From: Acidobacteria bacterium Ga0077522
GTDB lineage: Bacteria; Acidobacteriota; Vicinamibacteria; Vicinamibacterales; Vicinamibacteraceae
Assembly (NCBI GenBank): GCA_001464065.1
Contig: LNDN01000029.1
Coordinates: forward strand, 1 to 33,697
DNA: 33,697 nucleotides
Direction of reading: 5' to 3'
Made by a program: the position numbers and the translations under genes
Shown: positions 4,945 through 14,152 of the stretch, piece by piece
Numbering within the stretch: the stretch's first letter is position 1
Layout of the letters: each line of letters opens with the position of its first letter
The notes under the pieces: generated by a model
Databases searched by the model: none
What the model was told of the DNA's origin: nothing
Seen by the model: only the letters and a program-made list of their open reading frames with translations

Positions 4945-5757
4945 TCAGCGGGTCATCGCCCAGGCGACGACGGTGCCGGCCAGCGCCAGCCGGTACCAGG
5001 CGAAGACGGCCAGCGAGTGCGAACCGAGGTAGCGCATGAAGAAACGGATCGCGAGGTAGCCCACGACGAAGGCCGTCGCGCCGCCAATCAGGAAGAGCGT
5101 GGCGTCGCCGGGCGTGAGGCCGACCTGACGCAGATCGATCGCCTCCTTGGCCGCAGCGGCCACGATGGCCGGGATACCGAGCAGGAATCCGAAGCGCGCC
5201 GCACCCGCGCGGGTGAATCCCATCAGCATGCCGGCGACGATCGTCGCGCCCGACCGCGAGACGCCCGGCACCGGCGCCGTGGTCTGCGCGAGGCCGAACA
5301 CCAGGGCCTGGCCAACGCTCATGCCGCGGTCGTCCTGGCGCCACTGCTCGCCGACGCGCTCGACCAGCAGGAACAGCAACGCGCCCGCCGCCAGCGTGAC
5401 GGCGGCCACGAGCGGCGTCCGCGTGTGCGCTTCGATGACGTCGGCCAGCAGCCCGCCGACGATCACCACGGGAATCGTGCCGATGGCGATGAGACGGGCG
5501 CGCCGGGCGTCTGCGTCGGTGCCGGCAGCGACGCGCGGGAGGGCCCGCAGCATGCCCAGGATGTCTTCGCGGAAGTAGAGGACGATGGCCAGCAGTGTGC
5601 CGACGTGGGTCGCCACGTCGAAGGCGAGGCCGAAGCCGCGGTCATCCCAGCCGAAGAAGGCGCGCGCGAGGATGAGGTGCGCGGAACTGGAGACGGGCAG
5701 GAACTCGGTGAGTCCCTGCACCGCGCCCAGCAGCGCGGCAGCGACGTGCACCGGCAC
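4945..5757 (-). CDS. uppP: Undecaprenyl-diphosphate phosphatase
   Basis: This 270-residue polytopic membrane enzyme removes a phosphate from undecaprenyl diphosphate, recycling the lipid carrier for peptidoglycan and O-antigen synthesis. The two signature regions are present: GLTEFLPVSSSAHL at residues 15-28 (catalytic Glu and Ser/His cluster) and PGVSRSGATI near residue 172, with the phosphate-binding Arg. About eight hydrophobic segments fit UppP/BacA. The start is GTG at 5755-5757, 9 bp behind secF, and the stop lies 1 bp before the DUF502 start. Its place in a Sec operon is less usual than its sequence; tight spacing implies co-expression. Confidence 0.95.
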   Translation of the reverse strand: MPVHVAAALLGAVQGLTEFLPVSSSAHLILARAFFGWDDRGFGLAFDVATHVGTLLAIVLYFREDILGMLRALPRVAAGTDADARRARLIAIGTIPVVIVGGLLADVIEAHTRTPLVAAVTLAAGALLFLLVERVGEQWRQDDRGMSVGQALVFGLAQTTAPVPGVSRSGATIVAGMLMGFTRAGAARFGFLLGIPAIVAAAAKEAIDLRQVGLTPGDATLFLIGGATAFVVGYLAIRFFMRYLGSHSLAVFAWYRLALAGTVVAWAMTR

Positions 5758-5766
5758 GCCCGCCGC

Positions 5767-6744
5767 CTACGCGTTGCGCCGCTCGCGGCGGCGCGGACGA
5801 TCCGACGCCGAACGGGCCGACGCCGACGGCGCGGCGGGGGTGTTCGCTTCGTTCTTGCTCAGCGCGATGGCGATGGCCGAGGCGATGAACACGGTCGAGT
5901 ACGTGCCGCTGACGATGCCGACGAGCATCGTGAAGGCGAAGCCCTCGAGGACCTCGCCGCCGAAGATGTACAGGGCGAGCACCGACAGGAAGGTGGTGCC
6001 GGCCGTGATGATCGTGCGGCTCAGCGTCTGGTTGACCGAGGTGTTGACCTGGTGCTCCAGCGACGCCCCGCGCATCGTCCGGAAGTTCTCGCGGACGCGG
6101 TCGAAGATGACGATGGTGTCGTTGACCGAGTAGCCGGTGATGGTCAGGATCGCCGCGATGACGTTGAGCGACAGCTCGTAGCCGAAGAACGTCAGCACCG
6201 CCAGCGTGACGATGACGTCGTGCAGCGTCGCCGCGATGGCGCCGATGGCGAACGACAGCCGGAAGCGGAAGGCGATGTAGAGGGTGATGCCGAGGATGCT
6301 GGCGAAGGTGGCGTAGAGCCCCTTGCGCTGCAGGTCCTTGCCGATGACCGGCCCGACGATCTCGGTGCTGATCACCTCGAAGGTGCCGAGGTTGGCGGCC
6401 CGCACGGCGTTGAGCACCTGCGTGGCGCCCTGCTCGAGGCTGGTGCCCTGCTCGGTCTGCTGGGCCTGCGGCAGGCGCACCAGCACCTCGTTGGCGCTGG
6501 CGTCACCGTACTGCTGCACGACCTTCTCGCCGGGGATCGTGTCGAGCGCGGTGCGCACGGCCTCTTCCGACGTCGGCTGCTGGAACTTCAGGACGACGAT
6601 GGTGCCGCCCGAGAAGTCGATGCCGAGCGGCAACCCGTGGCGCGCAATCTGGACGATCCCCAGCACGATGAGGATGGCCGAGAACGCCAGGGCGTGCCAG
6701 CGCCACTTGGTGAAGTTGTAGTTGGTGTTCGAGAACAGATCCAT
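5767..6744 (-). CDS. secF: Protein translocase subunit SecF
   Basis: This 325-residue inner-membrane protein of the SecDF complex pulls secreted proteins across the membrane using proton motive force. The N-terminal helix is followed by GIDFSGGTIVVLKF (about residues 38-51), the P1-like periplasmic domain, then five helices carrying TITGYSVNDTIVIFDRVREN, the SecF signature with the conserved Asp/Arg. The Arg-rich tail after about residue 305 is not conserved. It starts 7 bp after the secD stop. Confidence 0.96.
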   Translation of the reverse strand: MDLFSNTNYNFTKWRWHALAFSAILIVLGIVQIARHGLPLGIDFSGGTIVVLKFQQPTSEEAVRTALDTIPGEKVVQQYGDASANEVLVRLPQAQQTEQGTSLEQGATQVLNAVRAANLGTFEVISTEIVGPVIGKDLQRKGLYATFASILGITLYIAFRFRLSFAIGAIAATLHDVIVTLAVLTFFGYELSLNVIAAILTITGYSVNDTIVIFDRVRENFRTMRGASLEHQVNTSVNQTLSRTIITAGTTFLSVLALYIFGGEVLEGFAFTMLVGIVSGTYSTVFIASAIAIALSKNEANTPAAPSASARSASDRPRRRERRNA

Positions 6745-9893: not shown

Positions 9894-11051
9894 TTGAAGA
9901 AACTGCGCGTGGGCGTCATCTATGGTGGCCGCTCGGGCGAGCACGAAGTCTCGATCGCCTCAGCCGCTGCCGTCATGGCCAACCTCGATCGCACTCGCTA
10001 CGAGCCGGTGCCGATCCGCATCGACCGTGACGGGCGATGGTCACTGGCCGACAAGCCACCGACGGCCGCGTCGGCCTCCGAGGTCATCGAACAGACCCGA
10101 TCGGAGATGAAGGCGCTGCGCGCCGGACGCGAGGTGCACCTGCTGCCCCGGCCGAGCGAGGAGACCATCCTCGCCATCGACCGCACCCCCACCCGGGGCG
10201 AGGACGAACCCCGCGCCATCGTCACCGGGGTCGGGCTGGACGTCATCTTCCCGGTGCTGCACGGGCCGCATGGCGAGGATGGCACCGTGCAGGGCCTGCT
10301 CGAACTGGCCAACGTGCCCTACGTCGGCTGCGGCGTGCTGGCCTCGTCGGTCGGCATGGACAAGGCGCTGATGAAGCGCGTGTTCGCGGCGCACGGCCTG
10401 CCGCAGTGCGCCTACGCCGTCGTGTTGCGTCGGCGCGTGCTGGCCGAGACCGAGGTGGTCGCCGACGAACTCCTCGCGCAGCTCGGTCTGCCGCTGTTCG
10501 TCAAGCCGGCCAATCTCGGATCCAGTGTCGGCATCTCCAAGGCCCGCACGCGCGACGAGCTGGTCGAGGCCCTGAAGCTCGCCGCCGACTACGATCGCAA
10601 GGTCGTCGTCGAGGCCGGCGTGCCGGCCGCCCGCGAGATCGAAGTGGCCGTGCTCGGCAACGACGAGCCGATCGCCTCGGTGCCCGGCGAGATCGTGCCG
10701 TCGCGCGAGTTCTACGACTACGAGGCCAAGTACCTCGACGGCGCGAGTCGGCTCGCCATTCCAGCCGATGTCCCCGACGAGATGGGCTCACGCCTGCAGG
10801 CGCTGGCCATCGCGGCGTTCCGCGCCGTCGATGGCGCGGGTCTCAGCCGCGTCGACTTCCTGGTCGATGGCGACAGCGGTGAGGTGTTCGTCAACGAGAT
10901 CAACACGATGCCCGGCTTCACGACCATCAGCATGTACAGCAAGCTGTGGGCGGCGACCGGCCTCGCGTATCCCGAGCTCGTCGATCGTCTGGTGCAGCTG
11001 GCGCTCGAGCGGCACGCCGAGAAGCAGCAGTTGCGCGTCTCGGCGTTCTAG
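9894..11051 (+). CDS. ddl: D-alanine--D-alanine ligase
   Basis: This 385-residue ATP-grasp ligase makes the D-Ala-D-Ala dipeptide for peptidoglycan. It opens with KLRVGVIYGGRSGEHEVS, shows HGPHGEDGTVQGLLEL (substrate loop), FVKPANLGSSVGISKA (ATP-grasp), and ends the core with FVNEINTMPGFTTISMYSKL, containing the Mg-binding Glu/Asn. It belongs to the longer Ddl class with an insert in the N-terminal domain. The best start is TTG at 9894, since this restores the full N-terminal strand and no in-frame ATG or GTG lies upstream; GTG at 9909 would cut into the motif. It is divergent from tgt. Confidence 0.95.
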   Translation: MKKLRVGVIYGGRSGEHEVSIASAAAVMANLDRTRYEPVPIRIDRDGRWSLADKPPTAASASEVIEQTRSEMKALRAGREVHLLPRPSEETILAIDRTPTRGEDEPRAIVTGVGLDVIFPVLHGPHGEDGTVQGLLELANVPYVGCGVLASSVGMDKALMKRVFAAHGLPQCAYAVVLRRRVLAETEVVADELLAQLGLPLFVKPANLGSSVGISKARTRDELVEALKLAADYDRKVVVEAGVPAAREIEVAVLGNDEPIASVPGEIVPSREFYDYEAKYLDGASRLAIPADVPDEMGSRLQALAIAAFRAVDGAGLSRVDFLVDGDSGEVFVNEINTMPGFTTISMYSKLWAATGLAYPELVDRLVQLALERHAEKQQLRVSAF

Positions 11052-11279
11052 ATCATCCCCATCCGCAAATAGGTCTCCTCCCCGAAAACACCCCGTCGAG
11101 GGCCCACGACATCGCGTCCTGCACGTGATGTCGTGGCCTCCGCGTGGCGTGCCCGCAGGGGGCGCGTATGCGTGCTTCAGTCCTTACTGATCAGGGGACG
11201 CGCGGCGCGTCAGGCCCCGCAAACGCGCGCCGGAATGCCAGGCGGGAGTCGGCGCAGGAACGTAAGCAAAGGGTTTGAT

Positions 11280-11295
11280 TTGTCAAGTTTGACAA
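11280..11295. promoter_or_regulatory. Operator-like inverted repeat TTGTCAA-GT-TTGACAA
   Basis: Two perfect 7-bp arms with a 2-bp centre (11280-11286 and 11289-11295). The same heptamer TTGACAA recurs at 11354-11360 and 11378-11384; the last of these covers the -35 box of the promoter. This is the pattern of a multi-site operator, although TTGACA alone is also the -35 consensus. Confidence 0.4.
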
Positions 11296-11377
11296 GGCTC
11301 GAGGTTTGCGCTAGCCGGCTCGACCAGGGGTGGGCGTGGCTGGGCAAATTTTTTTGACAATCACGCCGTCTTTATGC

Positions 11378-11405
11378 TTGACAAGCCAATTTTCTCATCC
11401 ATAAT
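11378..11405 (+). promoter_or_regulatory. Sigma-70 promoter of the mini-histone transcription unit
   Basis: TTGACA (11378-11383), a 16-bp spacer, then CATAAT (11400-11405) give 11 of 12 consensus matches in an AT-rich island. Transcription should begin near 11412, leaving an 88-nt leader before the first ATG at 11500. Confidence 0.75.
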
Positions 11406-11499
11406 CTACATCTTGTGTGAGGCAGGGTAGCTCAATCCACCTGTAGTGATGGGCCAATGACGGCTCACGGAGCGAGCGACCGGCAACCTAGGAGGAAGA

Positions 11500-11589
11500 A
11501 TGGCGAAGAAGGCAGCCAAGAAGGCCGCGGCGAAGAAGCCGGCAGCAGCCAAGAAGACGGCTACGAAGAAGGCCGCGAAGAAGCGGTAG
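11500..11589 (+). CDS. 29-residue Lys/Ala-rich histone-H1-like peptide (copy A)
   Basis: ATG at 11500 to TAG at 11587-11589 encodes 29 residues beginning MAKKAAKKAAAKKPAAAKK and ending KKAAKKR. It has 12 Lys, 12 Ala, 1 Arg and no acidic residue. A strong ribosome site (GGAGG, 11491-11495) sits 4 nt before the ATG. The AAKK/PAAAKK pattern resembles the C-terminal tails of eukaryotic histone H1 and of bacterial H1-like DNA-binding proteins, but here the tail is the whole protein. Binding DNA, RNA or another polyanion is the likely role, by inference from composition only. The promoter, the ribosome site, a similar second gene and a terminator downstream argue that it is real. Confidence 0.7.
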   Translation: MAKKAAKKAAAKKPAAAKKTATKKAAKKR

Positions 11590-11834
11590 TCGGCCTCGCG
11601 GCTCTGGCGCTTCGTCGCCACGCCGCAACGAGTGCTGCCCTCCGGGTGGCCTCGTCAGTTGGACACGCGGCGGCTGCCAGACTCGATCGGCGGCCGCCGG
11701 CCATTTCCGGCCGTAACGAACGGCTGTTCTCACTGCCTCTCACGGGTCGTGAGCGCGGGAGACAGCGTTGCGAGCGCACGTGATTGCCTGCGAGCGGCCG
11801 GCCGAGTAGACCGCCTGGAAAGGGGGGATACGCC
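11590..11834 (+). other. Spacer between the two mini-histone genes
   Basis: A 245-bp GC-rich spacer with no convincing gene. It probably belongs to the same transcript, because I see no terminator after the first peptide gene and no clear promoter before the second. It contains several short inverted stretches (for example GGCCGG near 11699 and 11718). Confidence 0.35.
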
Positions 11835-11909
11835 ATGGCCAAGAAAGCAGCAGCGAAGAAGGCCGCCGTGAAGACACCGGCAGCCAAGACGGCGGCCAAG
11901 AAACGATAG
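11835..11909 (+). CDS. 24-residue Lys/Ala-rich histone-H1-like peptide (copy B)
   Basis: ATG at 11835 to TAG at 11907-11909 encodes 24 residues starting MAKKAAAKKAAVKTPAAK and ending AAKKR. It has 8 Lys, 10 Ala, 1 Arg and no acidic residue. The first four residues, the central Pro and the AAKKR end match copy A, so the two look like diverged duplicates or products of one selected design. The sequence upstream is a G-run (AAAGGGGGGATACGCC), a weaker ribosome site than that of copy A. An intrinsic terminator follows 20 bp after the stop. Function is unknown; nucleic-acid compaction is a guess from composition. Confidence 0.62.
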   Translation: MAKKAAAKKAAVKTPAAKTAAKKR

Positions 11910-11929
11910 CGATGGTCAGAGGACATCGC

Positions 11930-11957
11930 AGAGGCGCGGCACCACCGCGCCTCTTTT
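11930..11957 (+). terminator. Intrinsic terminator of the mini-histone unit
   Basis: A perfect 10-bp stem AGAGGCGCGG/CCGCGCCTCT with a 5-nt loop (CACCA) is followed by TTTT on the plus strand. No T-run occurs on the minus side, so it serves the plus-strand unit rather than the convergent gene. Confidence 0.88.
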
Positions 11958-11975
11958 CGTGTCCGGCGTCCGGCG

Positions 11976-14123
11976 TTACTGTGGCGCCGTCACGCCGTCC
12001 CAGATCCGCACCCGCGTGATGGTGTCACCCACCTCGAGCCGATCGACGACGTCCATCCCCGAGACGACCTGGCCGAACACCGTGTAGCGACCTTCGAGAT
12101 GCGGCTGTGGCGCATGCGTCACGAACCACTGGCTGCCGCCCGTGTCCGGCCCCGACAGCGCCATGCCCACCGTACCCCGCGCGTACGGCCGATCGTTGAG
12201 TTCGTCGCGGATACTGTAGCCGGGACCACCGCTGCCATCACCACGCGGGTCGCCGTCCTGGACCACGAAGGCCGGCACCACCCGATGGATCTGCAGGCCG
12301 TTGAAGTAGCCCTTGCGCGCCAGCGTGATGAAGTTCTCCACCGTCAGCGGCGCGTCGAGCACCGCGAGTTCCACCTGCACCGTGCCCTTGGCCGTCTCGA
12401 TGTAGGCCTGCGGCGAATACGCCGGCGTGATCAACCGCGTCGACGCATACAGATCCGCCGCCACGGCGACCGGGGCCGGCCGGATGCGCCCGAGCGCGTC
12501 ACTGGCCGGATCCTGCGCCACCAGCCAGCGCGCCGCGCGCAACCGCATCGCCCAGTCGCGATCGGCCAGCGTCTCGTCCATCGGGCCGCGCGCCGCCGCC
12601 GGGTCGATGGCCGCCAGCGCCTGCAGGCTGGCCCAACGCGCGTCGTCGCTCGAGTCACTGCGTGACCGCTGCCACGCGGCGACGAGCGCCTCGCGCAGGG
12701 CCACCAGCTTCGCCTCGCCGGCGATCGACGCCGCTTCGGCGCGCACCAGCACATCGTCACGCGTCAGCACCGACGCGAGGTGCTTCTCGAGACCGGGCCA
12801 CTTCAACTGGTGAGCCGCGCGCAGCGCCGGCGGCAGCACGCGTGCGTCGGGGTCGGCCAGCAACCGCTCCAGCATCGGCGTGGCGTTCTCGAGCGACAAC
12901 GTCGGCAGCGCGTCGGCCAGGGCGCCGCGCACGCGCCAGTCGCCATCGGGGTCCAGCCCCGACAGCACCGTCGTGAACGACAGCGAGTCGATGCGCGCGA
13001 GGGCGCGCAGGGCCGCCGCACGCACGAACGGCGACCGCGACGTCAGGCGATCGATGACGTCGGGCTCGGCCTCGCGGGCACCGATCTGCGCGAGTGCCGT
13101 CACGATCTCGAGTTCGAGCCCGAGCGGCACGTCCTTCTGCCGCAACAGGCCGAGCAGGCCGGCCGTGGCACGCGCGTCACGCAGCTGCCCCGCGGCTCTG
13201 ACGGCCGACACGCGCACCTGCGGGTGGACCTGCCTCGAGGCCTCGAGCAGCGGGAGCAGGGTGGGCAGCGCCGTGGTCGCCTTGCGCTCGCCGAGGCCTC
13301 GCACCGCGTATCCCGCGGTGAAGGGCGAGTTCGAGGACACCAGTTCGACCAGCGCCGGCACGGCGCGGTCGTCACCGACGCGCGACAGCGCGGCGGCAAT
13401 CGGCCACCAGGAACTCCGCGGACGCCCCTGCGCGTCGAGGACGGCGGTGGCCAGGCCGTCGTAGCTGCGCAGCGCCGTCAGGGCCCCGAGCCCGCGGCGG
13501 ACCGCGTCGGCCTCGACGCTGCTCGTCGCCGCATCGTCGGCCGGTGGAGCGGCGATGGCGCCGCCTTCGACCAGTTGCCGGACCATCTGCGCGATCGGCG
13601 CCGCGGCCGCGGCCGCCGTGGTCGGTCCCAGCAACCCGAGCGCGTGTGCCGCACGCCCCTTCACGAGGGGGTTCGGGTCGCCGAGCGTGGTGATCAGGGG
13701 ATCGACTCCCGCGCGGTCGCCGAGGAGCCCGAGGGCGAACGCCACCATCGCGCGGACGTCGGCATCCGGATCCTGGAGGCGAGCCACGAGCGGCGCGACA
13801 CCCGCCGGCATCCCGACGCGGCCGATGGCCAGCGCGGCGCGCCGGCGCACACGCGCGTCGGTATCGCCGAGCAGCGAGACCAGGTCCATGGCCGGCGGTG
13901 GCGCTGGTGCCGGCAATGGCCGGCCGCGCCGATCGACGGCCGGAGGCGGTGGCGGGGCGGGCCGCGACTGCGCATCCTCCAGGACGCGGTGGTCCTCGAG
14001 GCGCAGGATGCTGGCGATCTTGGGCTCGTACGGCGGGGCGACGACCGGGGGAGGCGGCGGCGGAACCGACGCACAGGCGGTGGCCACCGCCAGCGAGGCG
14101 AGGGGCAACAGGCGACGCGTCAT
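11976..14123 (-). CDS. HEAT-repeat lipoprotein with C-terminal cyclophilin domain
   Basis: About 715 residues. The N-terminus MTRRLLPLASLAVATACAS looks like a lipoprotein signal with Cys near residue 17, followed by a Pro-rich linker. HEAT repeats run from about residue 80 to 560 (for example DTDARVRRRAALAIGRVG and LQDPDADVRAMVAFALGLLG). From about residue 575 there is a cyclophilin-type peptidyl-prolyl isomerase: QIHRVVPAFVVQDGDPRGDG, GSQWFVTHAPQPHLEGRYTV and FGQVVSG, close to the usual active-site blocks. It is probably an envelope folding factor whose HEAT solenoid binds partners. The start is uncertain: ATG at 14121-14123 gives the best signal, while an in-frame GTG at 14142-14144 adds seven residues. 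It is divergent from the kinase gene. Confidence 0.85.
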   Translation of the reverse strand: MTRRLLPLASLAVATACASVPPPPPPVVAPPYEPKIASILRLEDHRVLEDAQSRPAPPPPPAVDRRGRPLPAPAPPPAMDLVSLLGDTDARVRRRAALAIGRVGMPAGVAPLVARLQDPDADVRAMVAFALGLLGDRAGVDPLITTLGDPNPLVKGRAAHALGLLGPTTAAAAAAPIAQMVRQLVEGGAIAAPPADDAATSSVEADAVRRGLGALTALRSYDGLATAVLDAQGRPRSSWWPIAAALSRVGDDRAVPALVELVSSNSPFTAGYAVRGLGERKATTALPTLLPLLEASRQVHPQVRVSAVRAAGQLRDARATAGLLGLLRQKDVPLGLELEIVTALAQIGAREAEPDVIDRLTSRSPFVRAAALRALARIDSLSFTTVLSGLDPDGDWRVRGALADALPTLSLENATPMLERLLADPDARVLPPALRAAHQLKWPGLEKHLASVLTRDDVLVRAEAASIAGEAKLVALREALVAAWQRSRSDSSDDARWASLQALAAIDPAAARGPMDETLADRDWAMRLRAARWLVAQDPASDALGRIRPAPVAVAADLYASTRLITPAYSPQAYIETAKGTVQVELAVLDAPLTVENFITLARKGYFNGLQIHRVVPAFVVQDGDPRGDGSGGPGYSIRDELNDRPYARGTVGMALSGPDTGGSQWFVTHAPQPHLEGRYTVFGQVVSGMDVVDRLEVGDTITRVRIWDGVTAPQ

Positions 14124-14152
14124 CACTCGGGCGCATGCTAGCACGCGCGACT

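Follow-up and report, generated by a model that had tools for sequence, protein, structure and literature searches.

What lies in the short interval between a D-Ala-D-Ala ligase gene and a cyclophilin gene in bacteria of the order Vicinamibacterales, where two tiny open reading frames (ORFs) composed almost wholly of lysine and alanine codons follow a near-consensus promoter, and is its product a peptide, an RNA or an accident of composition? We addressed this question in the window, a stretch of 33,697 nt (contig C29) from a 5.4-Mb genome, and in related genomes. In the window the unit is flanked upstream by ddl (9894–11051, plus strand) and downstream by a convergent gene for a cyclophilin/HEAT-repeat protein (11976–14144, minus strand), both being syntenic neighbours outside the unit. 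The promoter (11378–11405, plus strand, as are all features of the unit) consists of a −35 element, TTGACA (11378–11383), and a −10 element, CATAAT (11400–11405), separated by 16 nt; it has the consensus base at 11 of 12 positions and is the only sigma-70-like match between 11050 and 12000, where shuffled sequences gave 0.2 ± 0.4 matches. With up to three mismatches allowed, the −10 motif occurs once in the source genome. Consistent with the AT-rich island described in an earlier note on this DNA, G+C content falls to 0.42 at 11350–11449 and is 0.63–0.74 in 100-base windows outside 11250–11499. There follow a structured 5′ leader (11412–11499, the start at about 11412 being predicted from promoter spacing), the Shine-Dalgarno sequence AGGAGG of ORF1 (11490–11495), ORF1 itself (11500–11589; 29 aa, MAKKAAKKAAAKKPAAAKKTATKKAAKKR), a structured spacer of 245 nt (11590–11834), ORF2 (11835–11909; 24 aa, MAKKAAAKKAAVKTPAAKTAAKKR) and an intrinsic terminator (11930–11957), made up of a hairpin (11930–11954) and a T-run. 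The coordinates previously given for promoter, leader, ORFs and terminator were all correct.

To what extent is this unit conserved? A DNA search matched 57 of 60 genomes, the source genome included, although any K/A-rich coding sequence might account for the weaker of these matches. From 28 loci we built a covariance model that spans the promoter and leader; it matched 133 of the 193 genomes of the class (again including the source genome) and 89 of the 119 better assemblies; all of the class matches listed belong to the order of the window, Vicinamibacterales, and span 15 families. From a draw of 396 genomes across the phylum 42 matched the model, 41 of them from the same order and one marginally (E = 9.7e-4). 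A pattern scan of an 84,980-species collection returned 70 stretches, mostly labelled Acidobacteria and some labelled Vicinamibacterales, Vicinamibacteraceae or Luteitalea, the last a genus within Vicinamibacterales; a few bear the names of other groups, and our results suggest that L183, L188 and L233, which are among these, are misnamed records of the same order. Merging leader loci with an identical 220 nt left 133 distinct loci (the ftsZ-side copy L124, described below, was merged with another copy). Of these, 130 had a promoter that could be parsed, three could not, and in the 130 the −35 element reads TTGACA in 128 and TTGACT in two, with a promoter spacer of 16 nt in 120 and 15 nt in ten, all as part of a near-invariant block that extends from the −35 element through CTACATCTKGTRTG. 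The gene order tgt–ddl–unit–cyclophilin defines a syntenic locus: the cyclophilin gene is convergent downstream in 122 of the 133 loci and ddl lies upstream in 96, with many of the remaining loci truncated by a contig end or a short flank; in L011 the cyclophilin match is upstream and not downstream. Elsewhere in the source genome there were two further DNA matches (C120 and C185), the second of which contained no K/A ORF in our scan. The match in C120 sits in a separate, 166-aa K/A-rich H1-like ORF (L002:1376–1876), which has acidic residues in its N-terminal part and a weak HC2 match (E = 0.49).

Of the 133 distinct loci, 130 have K/A peptides behind the leader, 200 in total: 68 loci have two ORFs, 61 have one, one has three and three have none. 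(The locus with three ORFs, L115, carries them in tandem.) The proposal in the earlier note that the peptides work as a pair is therefore consistent with the 69 loci that have at least two ORFs, but not with the remainder, which have one or none. The 200 peptides range from 14 to 65 aa, with a median of 17; 193 begin with MAKK and 181 finish with KKR. Their composition (K 49.1%, A 28.0%, G 7.1%, R 4.8%, P 0.8%) includes not a single D, E, F, W, Y, I, L, H or Q, so the description of the window peptides as almost only Lys and Ala, with no acidic residues, extends to the family; the central proline does not, since each window peptide has one but proline is nearly absent from the family. Because the ORFs were picked with a filter for K-rich frames, this composition is partly selected, which applies less to how the peptides begin and end and to their codon pattern. 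In codons 2–4 the mean non-majority fraction at codon positions 1, 2 and 3 was 0, 0.01 and 0.27, respectively, and in the last three codons it was 0.05, 0.04 and 0.23. Third-position variation of this kind is predicted by translation and not by a mere purine repeat, and amounts to a coding signature; by codon-position bias, the ORFs are shown to be coding.

These findings bear on whether the ORFs might be chance low-complexity frames in GC-rich DNA. K/A-rich DNA does keep other frames open, and both other plus-strand frames are open across ORF1. However, the window contains two short K/A ORFs on the plus strand and none on the minus strand, and no comparable ORF arose in 200 dinucleotide shuffles of the window with both strands read. 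With conservation over 15 families added, the probability of a chance origin is close to nil, and we rejected it on the shuffles and the codon signature. The window peptides match no Pfam or NCBIfam family above cut-off, and the ORFs of the unit are shorter than common annotation cut-offs. Trypsin would be expected to leave fragments of such peptides too small for routine proteomics, a point made for lysine-dense domains in a passage of the study of AlgP (PMC9239181).

The conserved RNA structure of the unit was missed by the earlier note. Within the leader we identified a stem-loop, P1 (11420–11443), which in relatives is of the GGUGG/CCACC type and in the genus of the window is a weaker stem with an internal loop. 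The number of P1 alignment cells changed on both sides was 41, compared with 11.0 ± 2.8 in shuffled alignments (0 of 500 shuffles reached it) and with 15–30 when the helix was slid along the alignment; the covariation score and the percentage paired each exceeded all 500 shuffles, although kinship among loci can inflate these measures. Two of five measures fell within the shuffles (double-change pairs, 203 of 500; further pair types, 197 of 500), and the outermost pair tested almost never forms. A conserved helix with compensatory changes, as expected of a cis-regulatory leader, is what P1 presents. A second helix, P2, would bring together GCUCAG in the P1 loop and CUGAGC ahead of the ribosome site of ORF1; in the window its strands are GCUC (11430–11433) and GAGC (11474–11477), and 12 nt separate the latter from the Shine-Dalgarno sequence. 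In a complementarity test of 131 of the 133 loci (exclusions were for N, a short flank or a locus that could not be placed), in which related loci were treated as independent, a P2 helix of at least 6 bp was present in 62 of 89 loci with an adjacent ORF1 of the Shine-Dalgarno type, against 32.4 expected, and in 11 of 42 loci lacking such an ORF, against 13.6 expected. The excess is confined to loci with an ORF1 of this type, which indicates that P2 goes with ORF1. The covariation score of P1 and P2 together on alignment A1 was not above shuffles (80 of 500), so the case for P2 is that made by complementarity. Taken together, these results suggest that P1 and P2 probably gate the ribosome site of ORF1. 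Like the cis-regulatory leaders in Rfam, this one is structured, lies beside a ribosome site and has a helix that covaries; unlike them, it belongs to no Rfam family above its cut-off, and a search with positions 11050–12000 of the window and with six loci of relatives gave sub-threshold matches only. We also considered 6S RNA and rejected that identity, since 6S RNA lies elsewhere in all eight genomes searched, the source genome among them.

In four genomes of one genus, g26 (L116, L119, L124 and L125), an additional copy of promoter and leader, followed by no K/A peptide, precedes ftsZ. Its flanks in L125 are ftsA and ftsZ by Pfam, and the other three copies are nearly identical to L125 in DNA over 900 nt. 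The presence of a leader copy without a peptide at ftsZ indicates that the leader module is portable, and the module is best read, on the basis of these arrangements, as a cis-regulatory element that at ftsZ would be used for a growth-linked gene.

Downstream of ORF1 the evidence speaks in part for the RNA itself. The spacer of the window folds more stably than expected (z = −2.68; 3 of 200 shuffles were equally stable), and in five congeners its mean pairwise identity is 77%, compared with 50% for ORF2 when gaps are counted as differences. ORF2 is degenerate in two of the five (L006 and L007), both of which retain the spacer and the GAAAGGGGG stretch, such that the spacer outlasts a broken ORF2. 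The expectation in the earlier note of conservation with synonymous-biased substitutions is thus satisfied across the family, where variation is mostly at third positions, but not by ORF2 in these two congeners. Many relatives have a terminator-like hairpin after ORF1 and, in the spacer, a hairpin of 14 nt upstream of ORF2, GUGCCAGGCGGCAG (L074, L082, L031 and others; alignment A3); neither is present as such in the window. GUGCCAGGCGGCAG was found once each in 89 of 311 loci, many of which overlap or are unrelated, and twice in none. Ahead of ORF2 RNAalifold returned a 4-bp hairpin alone, with no covariation, from 48 rows picked for containing the motif, the invariance of which is thus partly due to selection; of 100 unselected rows, 51 fit either of two variants of the motif, and the variant in the window may not be homologous.

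These observations, together with the covariation of P1, raise the possibility that the RNA is the main product of the unit, either dual-function or structural, and that the peptides are accessory partners or by-products. In this respect the unit would resemble VcdRP of Vibrio cholerae, described as a dual-function RNA with a 29-aa protein (PMC8672173), in combining a bacterial RNA with a micropeptide encoded on it; unlike VcdRP it has no known base-pairing target, encodes a polycation and spans an order. However, the consistency with which peptides bearing a coding signature follow the leader argues against an RNA-first explanation, as do the absence of the exact GUGCCAGGCGGCAG hairpin from the genus of the window and the peptide-less leader ahead of ftsZ, which points to a cis-regulatory role. 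We therefore regard a primary role for the RNA as somewhat unlikely, if worth keeping in mind.

Ahead of ORF2 the window carries GAAAGGGGGGAT (11818–11829), its form of the GAARGGGGGGAT element. A run of at least five G residues precedes the ATG in 100 of the 200 ORFs, and the exact GAARGGGGGGAT lies within 30 nt in 75 of these 100, compared with none of the 100 ORFs that lack a G-run. The source genome has three occurrences of GAARGGGGGGAT, which by our estimate is about the number expected by chance, and hence the count provides no genome-wide signal by itself. In a test that excluded stretches shorter than 90 nt, 45 of the 70 ORFs with a further ORF beyond them were followed by a terminator-like hairpin, compared with 6 of 70 in shuffles. 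This, and the fact that half of the codons specify lysine, is what might be expected if ORF1 and ORF2 were the leader peptides of an attenuator responsive to lysine or lysyl-tRNA. Yet in most loci such a hairpin also follows the last ORF (119 of 127 loci, against 14 of 127 with one shuffle each), beyond which lies a convergent gene, and the unit persists in loci that have no ORF1. Attenuation accordingly appears very improbable, and a lysine attenuator was rejected on the grounds that there is no downstream gene to regulate.

The pattern of presence and absence provides a further view of the unit. Sixty genomes of the class were negative for the leader, and the 31 that we followed (25 of the same order and six of the same class) were partly resolved. 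In six loci of family f8 (L236–L240 and L247) the gap between ddl and the cyclophilin gene is 19–111 nt and contains no K-rich ORF; these are, as judged from the gap, true losses, and such clean loss indicates that the unit is not essential everywhere. Locus L235, at the edge of a contig, begins within the unit and has both peptides. In f16 and f17, which belong to the same class and lack the leader of the order, five of six genomes encode peptides like MAAKKKAAKKGGSKKKK ahead of the cyclophilin gene; GAAAGGGGGGAT precedes each of them, and one genome has a second ORF; the sixth locus is too short to show. The order tgt–ddl–unit–cyclophilin is kept in three of these loci (L288, L290 and L291), ddl was not found in L289, and an extra gene, a HAD hydrolase in L289, the one tested, lies between the unit and the cyclophilin gene. 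Outside the class nine genomes matched in a pattern search, eight of which proved to have unrelated proteins or out-of-frame matches. The ninth, G286, comes from another class, in which 1 of 41 genomes carried such a peptide; it encodes MAAKKKAAKKKATKKKK behind a GAAAGGGGGGAT element. Here (L287, about 4950–5990) the K/A peptide gene is divergent beside a cyclophilin gene, an echo of the locus in the order.

How do the peptides compare with known lysine-rich proteins? Like Hc2 of Chlamydia and AlgP of Pseudomonas aeruginosa, they are Lys/Ala-rich and polycationic. Hc2 is reported to be 165–237 aa long (PMC2848022), and the KPAA-repeat region of AlgP, at 154 aa, forms a C-terminus that is predicted to be disordered and peptides of which are reported to bind DNA, with AlgP localising to polyphosphate granules (PMC9239181). 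The peptides encoded by the unit differ in being free, 14–65 aa long, almost devoid of proline (and so of proline-containing repeats such as KPAA) and derived from a structured RNA. The window peptides have no match to the Hc2 models PF07382 and NF038052, against which a 65-aa relative scored 19.1 bits (cut-off 40) and 19.4 bits (cut-off 135). Thus, of the analogy to histone H1 tails drawn in the earlier note, the Lys/Ala composition and the lack of acidic residues stand, but no H1-family model matches at cut-off and proline is nearly absent; that the peptides, like such tails, condense DNA is not supported beyond the resemblance in composition. Among PDB chains the 65-aa relative found weak matches to histone H2B only (best E = 0.046).

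The ribosomal proteins bL37, bS22 and eL41 are very short and basic. The peptides might be lineage-specific mini-proteins of this kind, which they resemble in being small and lineage-specific, and their size, their charge and the housekeeping-type promoter fit. Moreover, actinobacteria are described as carrying bS22 and bL37 as additional ribosomal proteins, which E. coli lacks (PMC10085706). On the other hand, the peptides are of low complexity and vary freely in length, the unit can be cleanly lost, and a 22-aa relative matched no PDB chain at E ≤ 10. We consider a ribosomal role unlikely.

We are left with moderate confidence in the following explanation, which is built from sequence comparison: the unit would be a conserved gene, mostly single-copy and vertically inherited in Vicinamibacterales, the structured RNA of which encodes one or two free polycationic micropeptides that bind polyanions electrostatically. 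A strong housekeeping-type promoter would drive synthesis of a structured RNA of about 550 nt, from which the peptides would be translated, ORF1 from behind a P1/P2 leader that gates its ribosome site and ORF2 from behind GAARGGGGGGAT, with the G-run possibly exerting control; the level of peptide would in this way be set by RNA elements. No hydrophobic core is possible in peptides of this composition, which carry 0.54 positive residues per residue, and so electrostatic binding by an unfolded chain to cellular polyanions, be they RNA, DNA or polyphosphate, is the natural reading. We count in favour of this explanation the leader in 15 families, the 130 loci with peptides, the codon signature, the synteny, the peptides of f16 and f17, the covariation of P1 and the link between P2 and ORF1, and against it the degenerate ORF2 of the two congeners, the losses in f8, the mixed P1 measures, the null result on A1 and the wide length range. 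A more elaborate version, which we think doubtful, is that the peptides form a self-partnered ribonucleoprotein: they would bind their own RNA (the P1/P2 leader, the GUGCCAGGCGGCAG hairpin where present, and GAARGGGGGGAU) and feed back on their own synthesis, and in trans would condense RNA, DNA or polyphosphate in step with growth. Overall, what the earlier note observed was confirmed, and its interpretation was partly supported.

No account of the unit appeared among the titles listed by our literature search. The products would be lysine-rich basic proteins, a known kind, with an RNA architecture that we have not seen described; new here are the near-invariant promoter, the covarying leader helix, the second helix linked to ORF1 and the GAARGGGGGGAT element ahead of ORF2. 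The gene is present in most of the genomes searched from an order that is known largely from soil and water metagenomes, and the promoter–leader copy ahead of ftsZ suggests that the module carries growth-linked control. If the peptides are made, we judge that few conserved polycations encoded by genes would be shorter; they would be a counterpart in nature to the polylysine-type peptides with which condensates are studied, and would allow the connection of RNA structure and peptide dose with the physiology of the nucleoid or of condensates to be tested.
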